A DNA stretch of 64,000 bases from positions 124,001 through 188,000 of the forward strand of contig JAVBYI010000008.1 of the NCBI GenBank assembly GCA_030824115.1. The letters are read 5' to 3'. Shown piece after piece: positions 3,928 to 44,519 of the stretch. The DNA is from Rhodocyclaceae bacterium. Lineage in GTDB: Bacteria; Pseudomonadota; Gammaproteobacteria; Burkholderiales; Rhodocyclaceae. The notes under the pieces were generated by a model. That model saw only the letters and a program-made list of their open reading frames with translations, was not told the origin of the DNA and made no database searches. Within the stretch, counting starts at the first letter, position 1. Each line of letters starts with the position of its first letter. Made by a program: the position numbers and the translations under genes.

Positions 3928-4902
3928 ATGATAATTTCTTCGCGCCCATTATTGATCCTGGCTATTGCAGCGCAGATGCTGGGGGGCTGCATTGCCCAAC
4001 TGCCCACGCAGCGTGCGGCCCAGCCGAATGCAACCACTGCGCAATCGAAGCCTCAAGCGCAACCCGTTACACCAAAGTGTCAGGGATTGCCAAAGAGAAA
4101 GGTGCTGGTGACAGCCTTCCCGATGCGCTACCCGGAGCAAATCAAATCCGGTGAATTCATGGGTTGGGCGCAAGTCACGGGCGAAGAGCTGAAACGAGCG
4201 ATTGAAGGTAAAGGCAGATTGCTGGCCTCGTCCGCCGCCTACCGTTTTCCCTTCGCGTCTGCCGACAAGGCCCCGGCGCTGGAGCAGGATCAGGGGGGCG
4301 TGCTGATCAGCCGCTGGGCCGCGCAGGAAAACGCACAGTACGTGATTGCCGGCGTCATCCATGACTTTGGCGTATCGAAGCTGAAAGGTGTCATTCCCGA
4401 AAGGCAAATGCACGTCGAAGCCTATCTCTACGAGGCCCATAGCACCACCCTGTTGGCCCGTCAGTCGTTTACGCGCCAGCTACCTTTCGGGGGCATACCC
4501 AAGTCTGTCGCCCCCGGCACCAGCGAATTTGCCGCCTCGCGACTGGGCGAAACCTTCAACAGCCTGATCGACGAAATGGCTCTCTGGGCGGATGACACGC
4601 TGACCTGCCTGCCATTTTCAGTCAGCGTTACCCGCGTGGATGAGCGGCGCCTGTCACTCGACCGCGGCAGCGACGCGGGTATTACGGTCGGCATGGCTCT
4701 CCAGTCCTGGCGCCCGGGTAGCGCGCCGCCGGCTCGCCATCCAAGCGTGCCGGCCACGGCAAAACCTCAGCCTACCGCCATCATCAAGCATGTCGAGGGC
4801 AAGACGAGCATCGCGGAAATTCCTCCGCAGCGTTTCCCACCGACGGTGCGCGTCGGTGACGTACTCTTCCTTGCCGATACGGACGGACGTAACAAACCGT
4901 AA
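3928..4902 (+). CDS. Putative outer-membrane lipoprotein, FlgT-like
   Basis: A 324-residue protein with a lipoprotein signal (MIISSRPLLILAIAAQ, lipobox LGGC). I preferred the ATG at 3928 over the upstream in-frame ATG at 3856 because it places the signal at the N-terminus. The region around KVLVTAFPMRYPEQ and the later RVDERRLSLDRGSDAGITVGM resembles FlgT, a flagellar assembly protein with a CsgG/TolB-like N-terminal fold. No flagellar gene is nearby, so the assignment is tentative. Its stop codon TAA uses the first two bases of a dispersed-repeat copy. The gene is divergent from the glycosyltransferase and upstream of a MacAB-type exporter. Confidence 0.55.
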   Translation: MIISSRPLLILAIAAQMLGGCIAQLPTQRAAQPNATTAQSKPQAQPVTPKCQGLPKRKVLVTAFPMRYPEQIKSGEFMGWAQVTGEELKRAIEGKGRLLASSAAYRFPFASADKAPALEQDQGGVLISRWAAQENAQYVIAGVIHDFGVSKLKGVIPERQMHVEAYLYEAHSTTLLARQSFTRQLPFGGIPKSVAPGTSEFAASRLGETFNSLIDEMALWADDTLTCLPFSVSVTRVDERRLSLDRGSDAGITVGMALQSWRPGSAPPARHPSVPATAKPQPTAIIKHVEGKTSIAEIPPQRFPPTVRVGDVLFLADTDGRNKP

Positions 4903-4924
4903 AAGTCGGCGCTGGCAGGACGGC
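4901..4924 (+). repeat. Dispersed repeat copy 2
   Basis: Four A then the core with one change (G to A at core position 13). Its first two A residues form part of the TAA stop of the preceding lipoprotein gene. The rest is intergenic, 29 bases before the macA-like start. Confidence 0.9.
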
Positions 4925-4953
4925 AATGATGGCCGTTCAGCTAGAATTTCCGC

Positions 4954-6219
4954 ATGAATTCGCGTCGCCGCAAACTGCTCATCCTCGCCGCTTCTGCGTT
5001 ACTCGCTGGTGCCGGGTATGCAGGCTATCGGCTTTTTCTTGCGGGGCCAATAGCACCCGAATTCAAACTGGCCGCCACCGAGCGCGGCCCGATTACTGCC
5101 ACGGTTGCCGCAACAGGAACGCTTAACCCGGTGACCGCCGTGCAGGTCAGTTCGCAAATCTCCGGCCAGATTCAGAAGATCTACGTCGATTTCAACAGTA
5201 TCGTCAAAGCGGGCGAGTTGATCGCCCAGATTTCCCCCGAGACCTACCAGCATCGCGTGCGTCAGGCCGAGGCCGATCTGGAGGCGGCGCGCGCCACGGT
5301 CGCCGTGCAGCAGGCCGAGATTTACCGGGCGAAGGTCAATCTCGCCGATGCCGAGCGCGACTATGCACGTAAGCAATCGCTGGTCGCCAGGAACTTCATC
5401 TCCCCGGCGGAACTCGACAAAGTACTCACGACACTGGAAGCGGCACGTGCCCAGATGCGGGTGGTCGAAGCGCAGGCCAGTAACAGTGCCGCACTGGTCA
5501 AGCAACGCGAGGCTCAACTGGGTCAGGCGCGTGTTGACCTTGGTCGCACCGAGATTCGCGCGCCCGTGGATGGAATCGTCATCAAGCGCAGTGTCGAGCC
5601 GGGGCAAACCGTTGCGGCCAGTCTGCAGGCACCGGAGATGTTCGTGATTGCCAAAAGTCTGGCTGACATGCAGGTGGAAACCTCGGTTGATGAAGCCGAC
5701 GTCGGCCGTCTGCAACCCGGGCAGGAGGCCAACTTCACGGTGGATGCCTTTCCCGGCAAGCGTTTCAAGGGCGAGGTGACCCAGGTGCGCAAGGCGGCGC
5801 TGGTGGTCTCCAATGTCGTCACCTATACGGCAGTAGTCTCCGCTGCCAACCCGGATCAACTGCTGTTGCCGGGCATGACCGCCAACGTCCGCGTCATCAC
5901 GGCACAGAAAGACAACGTCCTGAACGTCCCGAATGCCGCCCTGCGCTTTCGTCCGCCCGCCACTGGTAACGAGGAAAAGTCGGCGCTGGCCGGACGGCAA
6001 CCGGGCATGAACAAAGGCGGGGGCAAGAGCGGCGCCGGTAGCGGCAAGGTTTGGACGCTGGGCGCGGATGGCACACCCAGCGCCGTTGAACTCAAGACCG
6101 GCATCAACGATGGAAACCAGACCGAAGTGCTCGAAGGTGCGCTGCAGGAAGGCCAGCAGGTCATCGTGGGCGTGGTCACTGCCGCAGACAAGAAGACCAC
6201 CCCGCCGCGCATGTTCTGA
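4954..6219 (+). CDS. macA: Periplasmic adaptor subunit of a MacAB-type exporter (HlyD/MacA family)
   Basis: A 421-residue membrane-fusion protein. The N-terminal signal anchor is at about residues 6-25. A lipoyl half-domain follows ([19 protein letters not shown]), then a long coiled-coil hairpin at about 100-190, the second lipoyl half ([15 protein letters not shown]) and a beta-barrel at about 230-310. It would bridge the MacB-type permease to an outer-membrane channel for export of a macrolide, peptide or siderophore-like substrate. It is 5 bases from the ATPase gene, so they form an operon. A dispersed-repeat copy encodes KSALAGR (about residues 341-348), inside a flexible Gly/Lys-rich linker. 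Confidence 0.88.
5975..5998 (+). repeat. Dispersed repeat copy 3
   Basis: Four A then the core with one change (G to C at core position 13). It is in frame in the macA-like gene, read as KSALAGR within a linker of low complexity. Confidence 0.9.
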
Positions 6220-6224
6220 TCGCG

Positions 6225-6917
6225 ATGGCCAAGGAAACCGCGCCGCTGATTCGCACCGACAATCTGGCCAAGCATTACCGGTTGGGAGAAACGGATGTGC
6301 CGGCATTGCAGGGCGTCACACTGGAGATTGCCCGTGGCGAATTTGTCGCCGTCATGGGTCCCTCCGGTTCAGGCAAATCCACCTTCATGAATCTTCTTGG
6401 CTGCCTCGACCAGCCGAGTAGCGGGCGTTATTGGCTGGATGCAGAGGAAGTATCGACACTTTCGGACGATGCGCTCTCAACTTTGCGCAACCGCAAGCTT
6501 GGTTTCGTGTTCCAGCATTTCAATCTGCTGCCGCGCACCTCAGCGCTCGACAATGTCGCGCTGCCCCTGCTGTATCGCGGCCTCCCGGCTAACGAACGTC
6601 ACGCGCAGGCCGCACAGCGTCTTGGGCAGGTCGGCCTGTCGGCGCGCATGGACCACCATCCGGCACAGTTGTCTGGCGGCCAGCAGCAACGTGTCGCGAT
6701 TGCCCGCGCCCTGGTCGGCAATCCCTCGCTACTGCTCGCCGACGAGCCGACCGGCGCACTGGATACGCGTACCGGCATCGAGATCATGGCGCTGCTGCAG
6801 CAGCTCAATCAGGAAGGCATCACCATCGTGCTGGTGACCCACGAGCATGACATTGCCGCCTACGCCGACCGCATCATTCACTTTCGCGATGGTCGCGTGG
6901 TCTCGGCATCATCATGA
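6225..6917 (+). CDS. ABC transporter ATPase (MacB/LolD family)
   Basis: A 230-residue nucleotide-binding protein. It has Walker [10 protein letters not shown] (45-53), Q-loop FQHFN, signature LSGGQQQR (149-156), Walker [13 protein letters not shown] and H-loop VTHEHD. It belongs to the MacB/LolD/FtsE group that powers mechanotransmission exporters. Here the ATPase and permease are separate genes rather than the single fused MacB of E. coli. It overlaps the permease start by 4 bases (ATGA), so the two are translationally coupled and must act in one complex with the adaptor. Confidence 0.92.
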
Positions 6918-8152
6918 ACTTCCTCGCCACCTTCGCCATCGCGCTGAAGGCCCTGCGCGTCAACAAGCTGCGCTCGGCATTAACGATGCTCGGCATCATC
7001 ATCGGCGTGGCCGCCGTCATCATCATGATTGCGGTCGGCAGCGGCGCGCGCGCGCAGGTGGAGGCGCAGATTCGCAGTCTCGGCGCCAATTTGATGATGG
7101 TGTTTTCCGCCTCGCCGTCTTTTACCGGCGCCCGCAGCGCGGCGGGTTCAACGCACACGATCAGCGAAGATGATGCCTACGCGATTGCCCGCGAACTGCC
7201 GGATGTTGTCGCCGGGGCTGCGCCTGCCTTGCGTGGCAGCGGCCAGATTGTGGCCGGCAACAGCAACTGGTCGACCAGTTTCTATGGTGTCACACCCGAA
7301 TATTTCGACGTACGCGAATGGGGGCTGGCCGAGGGACGCTTCTTCGAAGCCGCCGAGATCAATGGTGCCGCAAAGGTCGTCATCCTCGGCAAGACCGTCG
7401 CCGCCAACCTGTTCGGGGACATGAGTCCGATCGACCAAGTCATCCGCATCCGTACCGTGCCGCTGACGGTCATCGGCGTATTGGCGGAAAAGGGACAAAG
7501 CCCAGGCGGCAGCGACCTCGATGACGTTGTGTTGATGCCGATCACCACGGCACGCAACCGCGTACTGGGCGCCACGGCGCTGGCCAAGTCACGTTCGGTC
7601 GGCTCGATCCAGATCAAGATTCGGGAAGGTGCCGACAGCAAGCTGGCCGAGGAACGCACACGCGAGTTGTTACGTCAGCGCCACCGTCTGCAACCCGGTC
7701 AGGACGACGACTTCACCTTACGTAACCTGACCGAAATCCTGCAAACCCGCGAAGAGTCCTCACGGGTGATGGCCCTGCTGCTCGCCGCAGTCGCCTCAGT
7801 CTCACTGCTGGTGGGCGGCATCGGCATCATGAACATCATGCTGGTTTCCGTCACCGAGCGCACCCGTGAAATCGGTCTGCGCCGCGCGGTCGGTGCCCGT
7901 TCGGGAGACATCCTGCGCCAGTTCCTCATCGAGGCGGTGACGCTGGCCCTGATCGGCGGGTTGATCGGCGTCCTGCTCGGTAGCGGCGGCGCGCAGTTGA
8001 TCGGCTATTACGCCGGCTGGCCGATCGCGCTGTCGGCCAGCGCCACCACACTGGCGGTGAGTTTTGCCGCAGCCATTGGCATTTTCTTTGGCTACTATCC
8101 GGCCCGCAAGGCAGCCCACATGTCGCCCATCGAAGCGCTCCGCCACGAGTAA
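6914..8152 (+). CDS. ABC transporter permease (MacB/FtsX family)
   Basis: A 412-residue permease. The N-terminal membrane helix is at about residues 17-40 ([25 protein letters not shown] in part). A large periplasmic MacB-type core domain follows, then three C-terminal helices of the FtsX domain, including [20 protein letters not shown] and the ending [19 protein letters not shown]. The topology and ending are classic for MacB-type permeases. It forms the exporter with the two preceding genes. The transported substrate is not predictable from sequence. Confidence 0.92.
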
Positions 8153-36072: not shown

Positions 36073-38589
36073 CTAGGCGCGGCCGAGTGCTCTCTCGATA
36101 TCGGCCACGAATACGGGTAACTGTTTTGTGAGCTGCTCGGATAACTTGACGGCAGCCGCAGTATCTTGCTGCTTCAGCAACAACTCAAGGTGAGTTGCCA
36201 ATTGATGAATTTCTGCAGCACCCAGGGTGCTGGCCGATCCTTTGAGTGCATGGGCCTGTTGGGCTGCAGCCGACAACTCACCCTTAGACAGATGGTTGGC
36301 AATTTGTGCTGCGTCATCGCCCTGCGTCAGTACAAACATCTTCAATAGCTTTGCGTACTTGGCGAGATCTCCGCGTACTGCTATCAATCCAGTTGTGACA
36401 TCAAGTCCGGCAATCCTGTCCAGGCGCTCCCGGAAGTCATGTACCTCGCATGGCTGGATTCGCGTGTCGCCTTGAGGCTGCCGGGAAGAGGGTTCCGTGT
36501 CGGCAGGTTGAGGTGGTAGCCACTTGGCTAACGTCGCGTAAAGTGCATCCGGGGTGACTGGTTTGGCGATGTGATCGTTCATGCCGGCATCGATACAACG
36601 CTGGCGATCTTCGTCAAACGCATTTGCGGTAAAGGCGATGATGGGGATGGTGTTCCAGCCAGACAACGCCCGTATGCGCAGCGTTGCCTCGGGCCCATCC
36701 AGATTGGGCATTTGCATATCCATCAGCACGAGATCATAAGAATGTTGCCGAGCCAGTTCTTCGGCTTCGCTGCCATCCTTGGCCACATCGACGGTCAGAC
36801 CCACGCCGTACAACAACTCTAGCGCTACCTCACAGTTGATCGGGTTGTCTTCAGCCAACAGGATATGTCGCGCGGCAAAACGGCGACGCAGACCAGCCTC
36901 ATCAGGAGGCGTATTGACTTGCACCGGCATGACGCCATGCCCCCGGCGGATTTTCGCGGTAAACCAGAAGCGGCTGCCCTGGCCGAGGCGACTCTCGACC
37001 CCTGTTGTTCCGCCCATCAGTTCCGCAATCCGTGACGTGATGGCGAGGCCAAGCCCGGTCCCGCCCGAGATGCGGCTGGTCGAGGTATCGGCCTGCTCGA
37101 ATGCCTTGAAGATGCGTTCCTGTGCCTCCGGGGCGATGCCTTGACCGGTATCCTCGACCTCAAAGCGGACGAACAAGTTGCCGTTGCTTTCTTCCAGCAA
37201 CTGGGAGCGCAGCCAGATCGTGCCATGATCCGTAAATTTGACCGCATTGCTGGCCAGATTCAGCAGTGCCTGGCGCAAACGCACGGCATCGCCGTGCAGC
37301 CAGATTGGCACGGAATCACTATCCACTTCGACCGTCAGCCCCTTGGCACGCGCGGTATCGGCGATCAGCGATCGCGTGTGATCCAGTACCACGCTCAGTT
37401 CGAAGTCCTGATGCGCCAACTCGAACTTGCCCGCCTCGATTTTTGACAGGTCGAGAATGTCGTTGATGACTTGTAGCAAGTGACGGGCCGCCGTATCGAT
37501 CTTGTCGAGACGCTCAAGGCTTGCCGGCTCGGCCAACTCGCGCCGCATCAAATGAGATAGTCCGATGATGGCATTCATCGGGGTGCGAATCTCATGGCTC
37601 ATGTTGGACAGGAAAGCACTTTTTGCCCTGCTGGCGGATTCGGCGGTTTGACGGGCAGACTCTAATTCGTGCGTGCGCAGCCGGACTTCCTCCTCAAGCT
37701 TGTCACGATGACGCTCCAGTTCATTTCGACTGTCTTCAAGGGCATGCTGACGATCCGCCACCATGTTGGCCATATAGTTGAACTCACGGGTCAGTTCGCC
37801 CAACTCATCGCTTCCTCCATCCTGAACCTGCGGGGCAAGCCCTCTTGCTACTTCGCCAGATCCCACACGCAGCAACTCGATACGATGCAGGATGAAGCGC
37901 TCCATAAACCAACCGAGTACGATGAATAGCGCCAGAAAAGCAACCAGATCGCTGATCAGCCGGGTCTGAAACCTTTCCCATACTTCGGCATCGTAACGTT
38001 CCAGCGGCAGCTTGATGCTCATGACGCCGCGCAAGTCACCTTCCTGATAGTCATATGAAACGCCGGGATAGGCTTTGCGGATACTTTCCGGTGCCTCTTC
38101 TTCGGTGCCGTGACAGCGCAAGCAGTAACCTTCAATCCATATCGGCGCGGTGTAATGAAACCAGCGCTTGCCCTGATCGTCCTGAATCGGCGTCATCCGC
38201 TCCTTGGCCTGCGGGGCTGTGCGGAAGTAATCCATGGCCGCCAGTTCAAACCTGTCGGCCATGTTGGCGGGATTGCGAGGCCGATCGGAAACGTTGTTGA
38301 ACAGATAGCCGTTATCGTTCCACTCCTTGTAGTCTGCCGAAATGCGTGACATGGAATGGGCCGGCAGAAAGCCCACCGTTTTATTGTTAACCGGCAGACC
38401 GCTATCGATGAATTGCCGGTGATAGACGCGCCGCGTCGCCATGAGGATGCCGCGTATCGTGTGCACATCGACTTCAAGTTCAGCACGCTGGTCGTGACGA
38501 ATCTTTTGCCAAGTCAGCGCCATGTCGAGGGCAAACACAAGTAGAAGCGTCAGCCCGAGAACCAGCCACATCTTTGTGCGCAGTTTCAT
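36073..38589 (-). CDS. Haem-motif hybrid histidine kinase (Tll0287-like sensor, HAMP, HisKA, receiver, HPt)
   Basis: An 838-residue kinase. It has an N-terminal helix (about 8-25) and a periplasmic Tll0287-like/DUF3365 domain with a c-type haem motif CLRCH (156-160). A second helix and HAMP follow, then a coiled coil and HisKA with [21 protein letters not shown]. HATPase follows ([18 protein letters not shown]), then a receiver ([13 protein letters not shown]) and a C-terminal HPt ([16 protein letters not shown]). A periplasmic haem suggests redox or gas sensing. It is divergent from the hydrogenase operon across 185 bases, which suggests a regulatory relation but does not prove one. Confidence 0.88.
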
Positions 38590-38774: not shown

Positions 38775-39893
38775 ATGAAAAAGGGAGAAACCTTCTTTGA
38801 GGCAATCAAAGGCAGGGGGGTGTCGCGCCGGGACTTTCTCGGCTTCTGCGGTGTGATGGCAACCTATATGGGGCTTGGCCCTGACGGTGTTGGCCTTGTG
38901 GCACACGCCCTTGAAACCAAACCACGTATTCCGGTCCTCTGGTTGCACGGCCTCGAATGCACCTGTTGTTCCGAGAGTTTTTTGCGTTCGGGCCATCCTC
39001 TGGCCAGCGATATCGTCATGACCATGATATCGCTCGATTACGACGACACGATCATGGCGGCGGCGGGACATCAGGCCGAGCAGATCGTCGAAGACATCAT
39101 TCGCGATTACAAGGGTAATTACCTGCTGGCCGTGGAAGGCAATGTGCCGCTGGCTGGCGATGGCATGGCCTGTATCGTGGGTGGCCGGCCGTTCAAGGAT
39201 CAGTTTCATGAGGCGGCACGTCATGCCAAGGCCATCATTGCGTGGGGCACCTGTGCGTCGTCCGGGTGTGTCCAGGCCGCCAAGCCGAATCCGACCAAGG
39301 CGACGCCTATCCACAAGCTGGTGACGCATGTGCCGGTGGTGAATGTGCCGGGCTGCCCACCGATTGCCGAGGTGATGACGGGCGTGATTACCTACATGCT
39401 GACCTACGACCGTATCCCGGAACTGGATCGCCTGCGGCGTCCCAAAATGTTTTATTCACAGCGTGTCCATGACAAGTGCTATCGCCGCGCCCACTTTGAC
39501 GCCGGCCAGTTTGTCGAAAGCTGGGATGACGAGGGCGCGCGGCAAGGGTGGTGTCTGTACAAGATGGGTTGTCGCGGCCCCACGACCTACAACGCGTGTG
39601 CCGCGATGGAGTGGAATGAGGGGGTGAGTTTCCCGATCAAGTCCGGCCATGGCTGTATTGGCTGCTCCGAAGAGGGTTTCTGGGATCGCGGTCCCTTCTA
39701 TGAACGTCTGCCTAACATGATGCAGTGGGGGGTCGAGTCGAATGCCGATAAAGTCGGTTTGGCGGCTGGTGCTGCACTCGCCGGCGGCATCGCCGTGCAG
39801 GCCGGTGCCACGCTGCTTAAGCGCATTGTCACCGGCCGCAAGCTCGATGCCGGTCTTGACCGCAAACCTGAATCCGAAGAAGAGTTCAAATGA
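38775..39893 (+). CDS. hyaA: Membrane-bound [NiFe] hydrogenase small subunit (O2-tolerant, group 1d-like)
   Basis: A 372-residue precursor with a twin-arginine signal (SRRDFLGF, 17-24). The proximal-cluster region reads LECTCCSES (C62, C64, C65), with C160, C165 and C194 further on. The extra cysteines at C64 and C165 are the hallmark of the oxygen-tolerant [4Fe-3S] cluster. The medial/distal cluster region includes [12 protein letters not shown] and [15 protein letters not shown]-terminal helix anchors it in the membrane. It closely matches HoxK-type subunits. It passes electrons from the large subunit to cytochrome b. The ATG at 38775 is preceded by a weak ribosome site. Confidence 0.95.
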
Positions 39894-41692
39894 GTCGCAT
39901 CGTTACCCCCAACGGCTTTGAGCTGGATAACTCCGGCCGACGTATTGCTATCGATCCCGTCACCCGTATCGAGGGCCATCTGCGCATTGAGGTGAATGTC
40001 GATGATGCCAACGTGATCCGCAATGCCGTGTCGGTGGGCACCATGTGGCGTGGCCTTGAAATCATCATGAAGGATCGCGATCCGCGCGATGCCTGGGCGT
40101 TCGTGCAGCGTATCTGCGGCGTGTGTACCGGCGTGCATGCACTGGCGTCGATCCGGGCCGTCGAGGATGCACTGAAGATCGAGATTCCACGTAATGCGAA
40201 CATCATCCGCAACATCATGCACTTCACACTGTACGCGCATGATCATCTGGTGCATTTCTATCACCTGCATGCGCTCGATTGGGTGGACATTGTCTCTGCG
40301 CTGAAAGCCGATCCCAAGGCCACCTCCGATCTGGCGCAATCGCTGTCGCCGTGGCCAAAATCGTCGGTCGGCTACTTCAAGGACATTCAGGGACGCGTCA
40401 AGAAACTGGTCGGCTCGGGCCAGCTGGGTCCCTTCCGCAATGGTTACTGGGGACATCCGGCCTACAAGCTGCCACCGGAAGCCAATCTGATGGCGGTAGC
40501 GCATTACATCGAGGCACTCGATTTTCAGCGTGAGATCGTCAAGATCCATGCAGTGTTTGGCGGCAAGAATCCTCATCCGAACTGGCTGGTCGGCGGTGTG
40601 CCGGCGACGATCAATGTGCACTCGGCCGGCGCTGTCGGGGCGATCAACGTTGAGCGCCTGAATCTGGTGCTGAAGATTGCCCAGATGACGCAGACCTTTA
40701 TCTCGCAGGTGTATATCCCCGACCTGATGGCGATTGCGTCCTTCTACAAGGATTGGACGAAGTGGGGCGGCGGCCTGTCGGGCAAAAATCTGTTGTGCTA
40801 CGGTGATTTTCCTTCTCGCGCCAACGACGACAGCAACGATAGCCTGATGCTGCCGCGCGGTGCGATTCTCAATGGCGACTTGAGTACGATCCATCCGGTC
40901 GATCTCCGGGATCCGACTCACATTCAGGAGTTTGTGCCGCACTCGTGGTATCGCTATCCAGACGAGAAGGCCGGCTTGCATCCGTGGGATGGTATTACCG
41001 AACTCGATTTCCGGCTCGGTGCCAAGACACAGGGTGGCAAGAATGGCAGTGCGATTGATGCCTTCGACGAAAACGAAAAATACAGTTATGTGAAAGCCCC
41101 GCGCTGGAAGGGCCATGCCATGGAAACCGGGCCGTTGCCGCGTCTGGTGCTGGCGTATGCCATGGGGCGCAGGGACATCAAAGAGTTGGTCGATGGCGCA
41201 CTGCGCAAGCTCGATCTGCCCTTGCCGGCCCTGTTCTCAACGCTCGGACGGACGGCTGCGCGCGGCCTGGAGGCGCAATGGGCGGCCGATCGACTGGTCG
41301 AAGAAGTGCATCACCTGATTGACCAGGTGAAGGCCGGCAACCTGGATACCGCGAATACCGAAAAGTGGAGTCCGACCACTTGGCCGGCTGAAGCCAAGGG
41401 TGTCGGCTATGCCGAGGCCCCGCGTGGTGCCCTGGGCCACTGGATTGTCATCCGTGACCAGAAAATCGCCAACTACCAGGCGGTGGTGCCCACGACCTGG
41501 AATGCCAGCCCGCGTGATAACGCCGGGGCTATCGGTGCTTATGAGGCCGCCCTACTGGGAACTCCGATGGCCGATCCGAAGCAGCCGCTGGAAATCCTGC
41601 GCACCATCCATAGCTTCGATCCCTGCCTGGCCTGTGCCACCCACGTGGTGGGGCCGGACGGCGGGCCATTGACGACTGTCCAGGTACTCTGA
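39890..41692 (+). CDS. hyaB: Membrane-bound [NiFe] hydrogenase large subunit
   Basis: A 600-residue catalytic subunit. Nickel ligands are in [10 protein letters not shown] (C76, C79) and DPCLACATH (C579, C582). The 15 residues after H585 ([15 protein letters not shown]) are the tail removed by the maturation protease. It oxidises H2 in the periplasm and is co-exported with the small subunit's Tat signal. Its start overlaps hyaA by 4 bases, as usual. Confidence 0.96.
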
Positions 41693-41695
41693 GTC

Positions 41696-42397
41696 ATGCA
41701 GCCCCGTCTGCCTTATACGATCCTGCCCGATACCGGGCCGTTGCCCGATGTGCAGATGTATGGCACCGGCATTCGATTCTGGCACTGGAGCAATGCGCTG
41801 ATGGTGGTGGTTCTGTCGGTGACCGGTTATTTCATCGGCACACCGCCACCCTCATCGATTGGCGATACCTCGGTGCTTTACTGGATGGGCTGGATTCGCT
41901 TTATCCATCTGGCTGCCGGCTATATCTTCGGGGTGTTGTTCCTGATGCGCATCTGGCTTGCCCTGACGGCGGGGGGCGTTGCCCATCAACTGTTTGTGCC
42001 TGCCATCTGGCGTGCCAGTTGGCTACGTGGATTTATGAAACAGATTGAGTGGAATCTGCTGCTGACCAATCGGCCGATGCGTTATATCGGGCTGAATCCG
42101 CTCGGCAACATCGTTATGTTGCTGATGTTCGTCATTCCTTCGGTGGTGCTTGTGCTGACCGGGTTCGCCATGTATGCCGAGGTAACGGGCCATGAAAGTT
42201 GGCAATACCTGTTGTTTGGCTGGATGAGCGCGCTGTTTGGTAATACCCTCGACATGCACATCCTGCACCGGCTGGCCATGTGGGTCGTCCTCAGCTTTGC
42301 CATGGCGCATATCTATATTGCCGTGCGCGAGGATATTCTTTCCCGTCAAACGACCGTCAGCGCGATGCTGTCGGGCGACCGCCTCTACCGGGATTGA
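41696..42397 (+). CDS. hyaC: Hydrogenase cytochrome b subunit
   Basis: A 233-residue membrane protein with four helices and haem-ligating histidines (for example RFWHWSNALMVVVLSVTGYFIG and MHILHRLAMWVVLSFAMAHIYIA). It anchors the HyaAB dimer and passes electrons to quinone. It lies 3 bases after hyaB and its stop overlaps the protease gene. Confidence 0.93.
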   Translation: MQPRLPYTILPDTGPLPDVQMYGTGIRFWHWSNALMVVVLSVTGYFIGTPPPSSIGDTSVLYWMGWIRFIHLAAGYIFGVLFLMRIWLALTAGGVAHQLFVPAIWRASWLRGFMKQIEWNLLLTNRPMRYIGLNPLGNIVMLLMFVIPSVVLVLTGFAMYAEVTGHESWQYLLFGWMSALFGNTLDMHILHRLAMWVVLSFAMAHIYIAVREDILSRQTTVSAMLSGDRLYRD

Positions 42398-42888
42398 TGA
42401 TGACGGTGACGGTCACGGTTCTTGGCATTGGCAACCGACTTTGGGCCGATGAGGGTTTTGGCCCCTCGGTGATCGATCGCCTGATGGCCGAAGGTGTGTT
42501 GCCGGCTGAAGTCGAGGCGCTCGATGGGGGTACGCTCGGACTCTATCTGCTGCCTTGCATTCAACAGGCGCGCCGGCTACTGGTGTTTGATGCCGTGGAT
42601 TTCGGCCATGCGCCCGGCGAGATCGTTGTCCTGCGTGATGGTGAAATTCCGGCATTCTTCGGTCAGCGTCCGCTTAGCCTGCACCAGACGGGGTTCACCG
42701 ATGTGCTGGCCGCCGCCGAATTGACCGGCGCAGTGCCCGACATGATTACGCTGATCGGCGTGCAGCCGGAATCGATTGATGAGTGGGGCGGCAGCCTGAC
42801 GCATACGGTGGCGGCGGCCATCCCGCACGCCATCGCACTTGGCCTTGCCGAACTATCCGCATGGCAGACAGAAGGAAAGCCACAATGA
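42397..42888 (+). CDS. hyaD: Hydrogenase maturation protease (HyaD/HoxM)
   Basis: A 163-residue protease. The family signature is [21 protein letters not shown] with the Asp/Glu nickel-sensing residues, and [10 protein letters not shown] follows. It cleaves the C-terminal tail of the large subunit after nickel insertion. The ATG at 42397 shares a base with the hyaC stop (TGATG). No hyaE, hyaF or hyp genes follow. The next gene is a chemoreceptor. Confidence 0.92.
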
Positions 42889-44519
42889 ACGCATATACCC
42901 ATGCTGCGCGTGAAGAGGATCTGAACGCGCTCGGCAAACTGGCGGTCTGGATGTTCCGAGTGATCGACAATGTGCGTCTCGCGCGCGTCGGTCACGTCAT
43001 CACGATCATGACCATCATGCTGCTGGCGGCAGGCGCGTTGGCGACGGCGGTGACCTTTCATTCGGTCGGCAGTATCGCCAGCGTCTGGCGCGATTTTGAT
43101 AGCAATCTGGCGCGACGGATCGACTTGCTCGGCCAGTTTCAGCACTACATGGGGTATGGTGGATTGGCCCAGCATTGGCCTGCAGCGGTGAATGGCGATG
43201 CAGCAGCAAAACAGGCGGTTCAAGGCGATATCACCAAGGTGCGTGAGGCATTTGCAGCCTACCTGCAGACCGAACCGAATGAATCAGAGCGCGCTGCCCT
43301 GAAGACCCTTGAAGGTACGCTGAGCGAATACGAGCGTGGCACGACAGCGATTGATCCGAATACTGCGATTAGCGCACTGACCAGCCTGCGCGACTTGCTG
43401 CAAAAGCAGCGCCTCGAAGGGGCCAATGCGGTTGAGGATGCGGTCTGGCGTTTGTCCGCCACGGTGGGGGGCGTGATGATGGGCATCTTCGTTTTTCTGC
43501 TGTTCTTCGGCCTGTTCTTTTTCTGGTTCCTGCGCTTTCGTATTGCCAAGCCGCTTGAGTTGATGGATTCAACCATGCAGCGGCTGGTGAAAGGCGATAC
43601 GGCGGTGCCGATCGGCTATACCGACAAGACGGACGAGATCGGGGAAATGGCGCGTGCGGTCAGTGTGTTTAAAGACAATGCCATTGCCAAGGCCGGGATG
43701 GAGGAACAGAAAGCGCACATTACCGAGAGTGTGCGCAAGACGACCACCGAGTTGGTGGAGCAATCCCGTCAGGTGCGTCAGGCAATGAGTGATCAGTCCG
43801 CAGCGACGACGGCCATGTCGGCTGCTGCAGAAGAGTTGTCGGTCAGCATCGATCAGGTTGCGCAGAATGCGGGCAGTGCATTGACGCTGACCCGCGAGAC
43901 GGCCGATGCGGTGACGGCTGGCCGAGGGGTTGTACACCAGACGATTACAGCAATGGAGGAAACCTCCAGCCTGGTCGCCCAGGCGGCAGGCAAAGTGCAT
44001 GATCTTGGCCAGCAGAGCCAGGAAATTCAGACCATCGTGGCGACGATTCAGGGCATCGCCAAACAGACCGACTTACTGGCCCTGAATGCCACCATTGAGG
44101 CTGCCCGCGCCGGAGAAACGGGGCGAGGATTTGCCGTCGTTGCCGATGATGTGCGAAAGCTGGCGGAACGCAGCAATCAGTCTGCCCACGATATCCACAG
44201 CATTTTGTCGACCATTAATGAACAGGTGATGCGGGTGACGGAGAACGTTGTTTCTGCCGCCGATAAAGCCCAGGAGAGCGCGAGTGGCTCGCGTCAGGTC
44301 GAGCAGGCACTCATTACTATTTCCAAGCGATCTGAGCAGGTGGTTGCCGCGGTCAGCGATATTGCCAATGCAGCGCAGGAGCAAAGCAGTTCTGGCCACG
44401 AAATCGCGCGCCAGGTAGAACATGTGGCCGCGAATGCCGAATCCACTTTGCGGTCGATCAAACAGGTCGACCAACTGGCCGCCGACCTTAATCGCTTGAT
44501 GGCGTCGCTAGGCCGGTAA
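42885..44519 (+). CDS. Methyl-accepting chemotaxis protein encoded in the hydrogenase operon
   Basis: A 544-residue chemoreceptor. Two helices (about 37-58 and 205-228) flank a periplasmic four-helix-type sensor of about 140 residues. HAMP follows, then the signalling domain with the conserved tip [24 protein letters not shown] (across the tip) and [18 protein letters not shown]. Its ATG overlaps the hyaD stop (ATGA), so it is translationally coupled to the hydrogenase genes. That suggests energy taxis or H2-related taxis, an inference from position. No C-terminal CheR pentapeptide is present. Confidence 0.9.

Follow-up and report, generated by a model that had tools for sequence, protein, structure and literature searches.

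Hydrogen taxis has been reported as a behavior, reportedly by Brileya et al. in 2013 for Methanococcus maripaludis, i.e., the same behavior as is proposed below, in an archaeon. The energy-taxis receptors Aer, TlpD, and CetAB have PAS-FAD or cytoplasmic sensors, and the HupUV/HoxBC proteins are cytoplasmic and signal to a histidine kinase in the control of genes. The uptake hydrogenase HyaABC oxidizes H2 at the periplasmic face of the membrane, and electrons pass via cytochrome b to quinone.

In HydDB, group C2 of the [FeFe] hydrogenases is labeled "chemotactic (putative)" (PMC5037454), and a review classes both HoxBC and energy taxis as forms of activity sensing (PMC6978683). For Oleidesulfovibrio, a potential chemotaxis to H2 is reported (PMC12004927). 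A 2025 neighborhood survey of [NiFe] hydrogenases includes an MCP cluster of 87 genes, as its table reads, and in the available part of the survey the term occurs once, in that table (PMC12727194). In Dechloromonas aromatica, the genes stand in a hoxKGZMLOQR-type order, hoxM is followed by accessory genes, and the table of that paper has no MCP (PMC2907700). In the literature searched, coverage of which was partial, we found neither a named receptor for H2 taxis nor any account that places an MCP in a [NiFe] uptake-hydrogenase operon.

Here we describe an MCP as the fifth gene of such an operon in a 64,000-nt stretch of DNA from a Rhodocyclaceae bacterium, hereafter called the window. As proposed for [FeFe] group C2 in HydDB, a hydrogenase would inform an MCP about H2; unlike those putative sensory [FeFe] enzymes, the partner here is a respiratory-type [NiFe] uptake hydrogenase (PF00374) with a TAT signal and a cytochrome b. 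H2-dependent signaling is a likeness to HupUV/HoxBC with their HupT/HoxJ kinases, and HupUV-like genes adjoin 3/15 of the blocks described below. However, HupUV/HoxBC have no TAT signal and are coupled to a PAS kinase, whereas our hyaA has a TAT signal and is followed, four genes on, by an MCP without PAS. Like Aer, TlpD, and CetAB, the receptor is proposed to report energy state or respiration while binding no nutrient; unlike them, it has a predicted periplasmic four-helix sensor, no cofactor motif, and no PAS domain. With Tar, Tsr, MCP2201, and NarQ it shares a predicted TM-4HB-TM-HAMP topology and perhaps the overall fold, but it lacks a Pfam 4HB or TarH hit, has a conserved N-terminal cytoplasmic extension, and was found in this work only beside hydrogenase genes.

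Results

The features of the locus are collected in Table 1. The genes hyaA to hyaD encode a membrane-bound [NiFe] uptake hydrogenase of the Hya/Hox-MBH type, consisting of a TAT small subunit, a large subunit, and a cytochrome b, together with a HyaD protease; upstream of the MCP, Pfam gave HycI protease, cytochrome b561, NiFeSe_Hases, and hydrogenase small subunit. The motifs CTCC and WGTCASSGC in hyaA fit what we take to be the six-cysteine proximal-cluster signature of [NiFe] group 1d, which is O2-tolerant. Consecutive genes overlap by 4 nt (hyaA/hyaB, ATGA, 39890-39893), are 3 nt apart (hyaB-hyaC), overlap by 1 nt (hyaC/hyaD, with ATG 42397 as our choice of hyaD start), and overlap by 4 nt (hyaD/MCP). 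The sequence-only reading had described an MCP whose start overlaps the hyaD stop, and this was borne out both by Pfam and by direct reading, which puts the MCP ATG at 42885, the hyaD stop TGA at 42886-42888, the end of the MCP stop at 44519, and a ribosome-binding-like AAGGAA 7 nt upstream of the ATG. Downstream of the MCP, the next gene codes for a CBS-domain protein and lies on the opposite strand. A promoter and terminator scan returned nothing above chance, with no plus-strand promoter-like site upstream of hyaA. Divergent from hyaA, a hybrid histidine kinase (36073-38589, minus strand) carries a Tll0287-like sensor and a CLRCHG heme-type motif; tblastn gave only partial kinase matches to it in the loci of relatives.

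Table 1. Coordinates, in the window, of the hydrogenase-receptor operon and of the parts of the receptor.
Feature	Coordinates	Strand	Basis
hyaA, [NiFe] hydrogenase small subunit, TAT signal RRDFLGF	38775..39893	+	NCBIfam hydA 9e-154, TAT_signal_seq; Pfam
hyaB, [NiFe] hydrogenase large subunit	39890..41692	+	PF00374, about 1e-230
hyaC, b-type cytochrome subunit (quinone link)	41696..42397	+	TIGR02125 7e-52, above cut-off
hyaD, hydrogenase maturation protease	42397..42888	+	TIGR00140 5e-47, above cut-off
ATGA, hyaD stop overlapping MCP start	42885..42888	+	Direct reading
MCP, 544 aa, fifth gene of the hyaABCD-MCP operon	42885..44519	+	PF00015, PF00672; hyaD-MCP order in 15/15 orthologs
N-terminal cytoplasmic extension, about residues 1-36	42885..42992	+	Invariant LN..G, DNVR; 15-sequence alignment, boundaries by eye
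Periplasmic four-helix sensor, about residues 59-188	43059..43448	+	Alignment, AlphaFold2 model, fold matches; boundaries by eye

The window's MCP matched MCPsignal (PF00015, 1.6e-39, 136 bits) and HAMP (PF00672, 9.5e-07, 29.5 bits), both over cut-off. No further Pfam domain was found in it at E 0.01, PAS included, and a PAS/FAD energy sensor was therefore rejected. In the alignment of 15 orthologs, a cytoplasmic stretch is followed by a transmembrane helix, the periplasmic domain, and an intact signaling tip, LLALNA.IE.ARAGE.G.GF.VVAD.VR.LAE, which is invariant. A CheA-type domain (PF02895) was over cut-off in 16/16 genomes searched, i.e., the 15 carriers and that of the distant relative G1413. 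With MCPsignal, HAMP, a conserved hairpin tip, and CheA in the genome, the protein has the predicted make-up of an MCP. The window's genome holds four CheA-type matches, and one CheA has FlhB and FlhA as neighbors (flagellar genes were sought only beside its CheA genes). Taxis is therefore possible, and, in view of the four CheA-type matches, flagellar taxis was assumed as the output.

To find relatives without drawing on the common signaling domain, we used profile A1, built from the N-terminal ~217 residues of five orthologs, which are themselves among the hits. At E < 1e-80 there were 15 distinct orthologs, ten from the window's family, four from that of G716, and one from that of G428; the latter are two more families of the window's order. 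By genomes searched, A1 matched 10/395 in the window's family, 4/399 in its order (two of them already counted), 4/22 in the family of G716, and 1/4 in that of G428. Searches of the class gave 3/369, where the window's own genome was the only strong match and the other two were partial (~1e-7), and searches of the phylum gave 6/299, of which one was the window's genome, one was G1413 (1e-35), and four were weak. Two orthologs lie in named records: L040, from a Rhodocyclaceae MAG, is the contig of G014, and L041, from a Sulfuricella MAG, is that of G1146. A scan of named genomes, which detects close relatives only, gave 3 loci; L042, from an Anaerobiospirillum MAG, matched in the signaling domain alone and was dropped. 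The weaker hits of the profiles, with E from 7e-15 to 2e-6, match a wider GYGG-type sensor in part and were left out of the count; two of them gave no hya match by tblastn. Spread by plasmids was likewise rejected, as the 2089 matching plasmid records were each <60% identical and the ten listed were 29-32% identical. No relative was found among viral contigs by a method that detects close relatives only.

The gene directly before the MCP was hyaD in all 15 orthologs, at a spacing of -28 to +9 nt (where several start codons were possible, one of those listed was taken), and the two frames overlap in 10/15, namely the ten of the window's family. Upstream, hyaA, hyaB, and hyaC were on the same contig in 13/15; the contigs of the other two begin inside hyaA (G177) and inside hyaC (G1147). 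Thus the hyaABCD-MCP order that the sequence-only reading had suggested looking for does occur in other genomes, and the arrangement is not unique to one strain, which that reading would have taken as refutation, but extends over three families. Its retention in 15/15 orthologs suggests more than a chance pairing.

A more distant relative was found in G1413, a genome of the same phylum but of a different class. This MCP is 30% identical and has a similar N-terminal extension. It begins at base 2 of contig C177, and downstream of it, in the same orientation, lies hypD (PF01924, 1e-119). Contig C124 of this genome carries hyaA, hyaB (with a broken frame), and hyaD but lacks a hyaC among them, and it ends inside hyaD. 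The two contig ends would be compatible with a hyaD-MCP order, with the genes on separate contigs. The G1413 hyaB matches in more than one frame (L127, about 4574-6370), so that either the assembly is faulty or the gene is broken. A wider profile, A3, which includes the G1413 sequence, matched 8/167 genomes of that class, with G1413 as the one strong match.

Among 249 genomes of the window's family that were searched, 83 carry a close hyaB. The hyaB genes >=74% identical to that of the window were those of the seven carriers in this draw and of G201, where MCP presence cannot be read since the contig ends inside hyaC. At 22 loci with hyaB <71% identical, no MCP was seen in the flank, but only 4/22 were read past the end of hyaD, so this set is a weak control. 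We relied instead on longer loci of non-carrier hyaB genes, with 4.5 to 12.8 kb of downstream sequence; in 9/9 of these there was no downstream MCP, G201 being left aside because of its contig end. For the 22 genomes with hyaB <71%, we infer that there is no match to the receptor profile anywhere. Since other hyaB loci were read without an MCP, the hydrogenase does not need it. In a maximum-likelihood tree, from which G1147 is absent as its hyaB is missing, the hyaB of 14 carriers and of G201 form one clade (support 0.999), and the G1413 hyaB falls outside it. The MCP tree has the same three main groups as the hyaB tree, with G070 placed differently. Synteny in 15/15 orthologs and the one matching hyaB clade argue strongly for the functional link between receptor and hydrogenase that had been put forward from the window. 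HyaC has 32 clade-specific residues; they were read as ordinary clade divergence, and no interface is claimed. In G199, whose locus is one of the nine longer ones (L144, 2839-4539), and in G169 (L145, 4553-6253), a different MCP lies ~1 kb upstream of hyaA; that of G199 has an sCache sensor, and its counterpart is absent from the region read in G126, of the same genus. These upstream MCPs are possibly a second, independent pairing.

An ordinary MCP might also have become stuck behind hyaD with no functional link. The carriers belong to one hyaB clade, which would be compatible with a single origin of the arrangement, and MCPs are plentiful in the window's genome, which has at least 23 matches. 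However, the order was kept at dS 0.75 to 1.6, with dN/dS of about 0.1 (0.05-0.13, four MCP pairs), while the genes flanking the block mostly differ among carrier genomes (by eye), and the G1413 relative in another class also adjoins a hydrogenase gene. We consider such hitch-hiking most improbable; at the sequence level the receptor is evidently under purifying selection.

The usual accessory genes had been noted as absent after hyaD. For the window this holds: queries for HypA, HypB, HypD, HypF, a HypX-like protein, and NicO, taken from relatives, together with the frames that come after hyaB in G098, a non-carrier, matched no gene in it other than hyaC and hyaD. It does not hold generally among relatives, since hypD (G716), a hypX-like gene (G1148), and a NicO nickel permease gene (G123) lie near the block; HypA, HypB, and HypF near these three blocks were named by eye only. 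The NicO gene, downstream of the MCP, would suit a receptor for nickel or another hydrogenase metal. This reading is highly unlikely, however, as NicO occurs at that 1 locus only, 9/15 orthologs (the window's included) have no cysteine, and the periplasmic domain has a single near-conserved histidine, His87 (14/15).

Besides hyaB, the window's genome encodes three further [NiFe] large subunits. Two belong to a Hyb-like and a HoxFUH-like enzyme on contig C9, close to HypF and a HypX-like gene, and the third to a HupUV-like enzyme on contig C5 that is accompanied by a hybrid kinase; these sub-type names are our own. The MCP signaling profile found no MCP in 44 kb around these other hydrogenases and a single one in the window. 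HupUV-like genes adjoin the hyaABCD-MCP block in G021, G146, and G221 (by Pfam in G021 and G146), where kinase matches stand beside them (L045, 684-5742; L061; L062); in L045, the one checked, the kinase has a PAS domain. The G146 hyaB contains one in-frame TAG (L062, about 6999-7001), which reflects either a mistake in the assembly or a gene that is broken. A protein that by eye is GGDEF-EAL-like lies near the operon of G004 (L044, 14733-17294) and carries the heme-type motif CMRCHD.

Although chemoreceptor sensors usually vary faster, mean conservation over the 15 orthologs was 0.74 in the sensor, compared with 0.71 and 0.66 in the signaling arms, 0.78 in HAMP, and 0.86 in the tip, and a 13-residue stretch of sensor helix 1 is invariant in the 15 aligned orthologs. 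His97 is present in 12/15, and no histidine or cysteine of the sensor is invariant. Structure prediction of the sensor, a check proposed from the window, gave a four-helix bundle in a moderate AlphaFold2 model (pLDDT 68.9, pTM 0.45, three sequences). NarQ took Foldseek ranks 1-5 (E 4e-3), with no match below 0.001. Among the families listed by VIA-align, Z was 12.9 for QseE, 11.9 for NarQ, and 11.6 for Tar and Tsr, all within the stated background of helical bundles; MCP2201 and Vc1313 were also among the fold matches. Against Pfam, the sensor region alone gave HBM (0.048) and two DUFs at up to E 1, all under cut-off, and no sequence match to 4HB_MCP_1 or TarH.

The window's sensor is weakly related to a wider periplasmic sensor in MCPs, kinases, and other proteins, marked by GYGG, GFGG, or GYVG followed by I-H-x-F-K-N. 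This GYGG-type sensor was seen at L135, L136, L138, L142, L143, L058, and L116, with two copies in L135 and L143; four such proteins that were scanned had no Pfam match over cut-off in the sensor region. Since four-helix sensors usually bind small ligands, an unrelated ligand is possible for the receptor too: it could sense an electron acceptor such as nitrate, or another anion, relevant during life on H2, and its place in the operon would reflect co-expression. Such a reading draws on the ligand-binding four-helix sensors among the fold matches (NarQ, Tar, Tsr, MCP2201, and Vc1313) and on the weak kinship to the GYGG-type sensor, six loci of which have no hydrogenase gene by eye in their short flanks. 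However, the NarQ match is weak, the Z values of 11 to 13 are those of helical bundles in general, and a receptor for a general ligand should turn up in other settings as well, whereas 15/15 orthologs stand behind the same hydrogenase operon. We therefore regard a small ligand as possible but doubtful.

Discussion

The genomic data are best read as pointing to taxis in response to H2, or to the redox state that results from hydrogenase turnover, as the sequence-only reading had suggested. The MCP is probably a dedicated transmembrane chemoreceptor that is co-expressed with HyaABC and reports its activity indirectly, through contact or through the quinol or proton-motive state. Direct sensing of H2 by the receptor was judged unlikely, given the orthologs that lack cysteine and the lack of an invariant histidine or cysteine in the sensor. 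Since the receptor has no cofactor signature and would thus be unlikely to bind H2, its likeliest input is the enzyme or what the enzyme produces.

In the proposed mechanism, H2 would be oxidized by HyaABC and its electrons would pass to cytochrome b and on to quinone. The periplasmic four-helix sensor might detect this turnover by touching the enzyme or its cytochrome b; alternatively, its input could be the local quinol or proton-motive state. The signal would then be relayed through HAMP to CheA, and cells would gather where H2 and an acceptor are available for oxidation. In a bolder and rather unlikely version, HyaABC would act as the ligand-binding part of the receptor by docking on the cysteine-free bundle and the N-terminal extension; H2 oxidation would be read by direct contact, and a respiratory enzyme would itself be the sensor for H2 taxis, perhaps across two classes of the phylum.

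A receptor that stands regularly within an uptake-hydrogenase operon offers a direct genetic handle on H2 taxis. If the proposed role is true, it would bear on how H2-oxidizing bacteria locate narrow zones of contact between H2 and an acceptor, as well as on the behavior of microbes in H2 storage sites.
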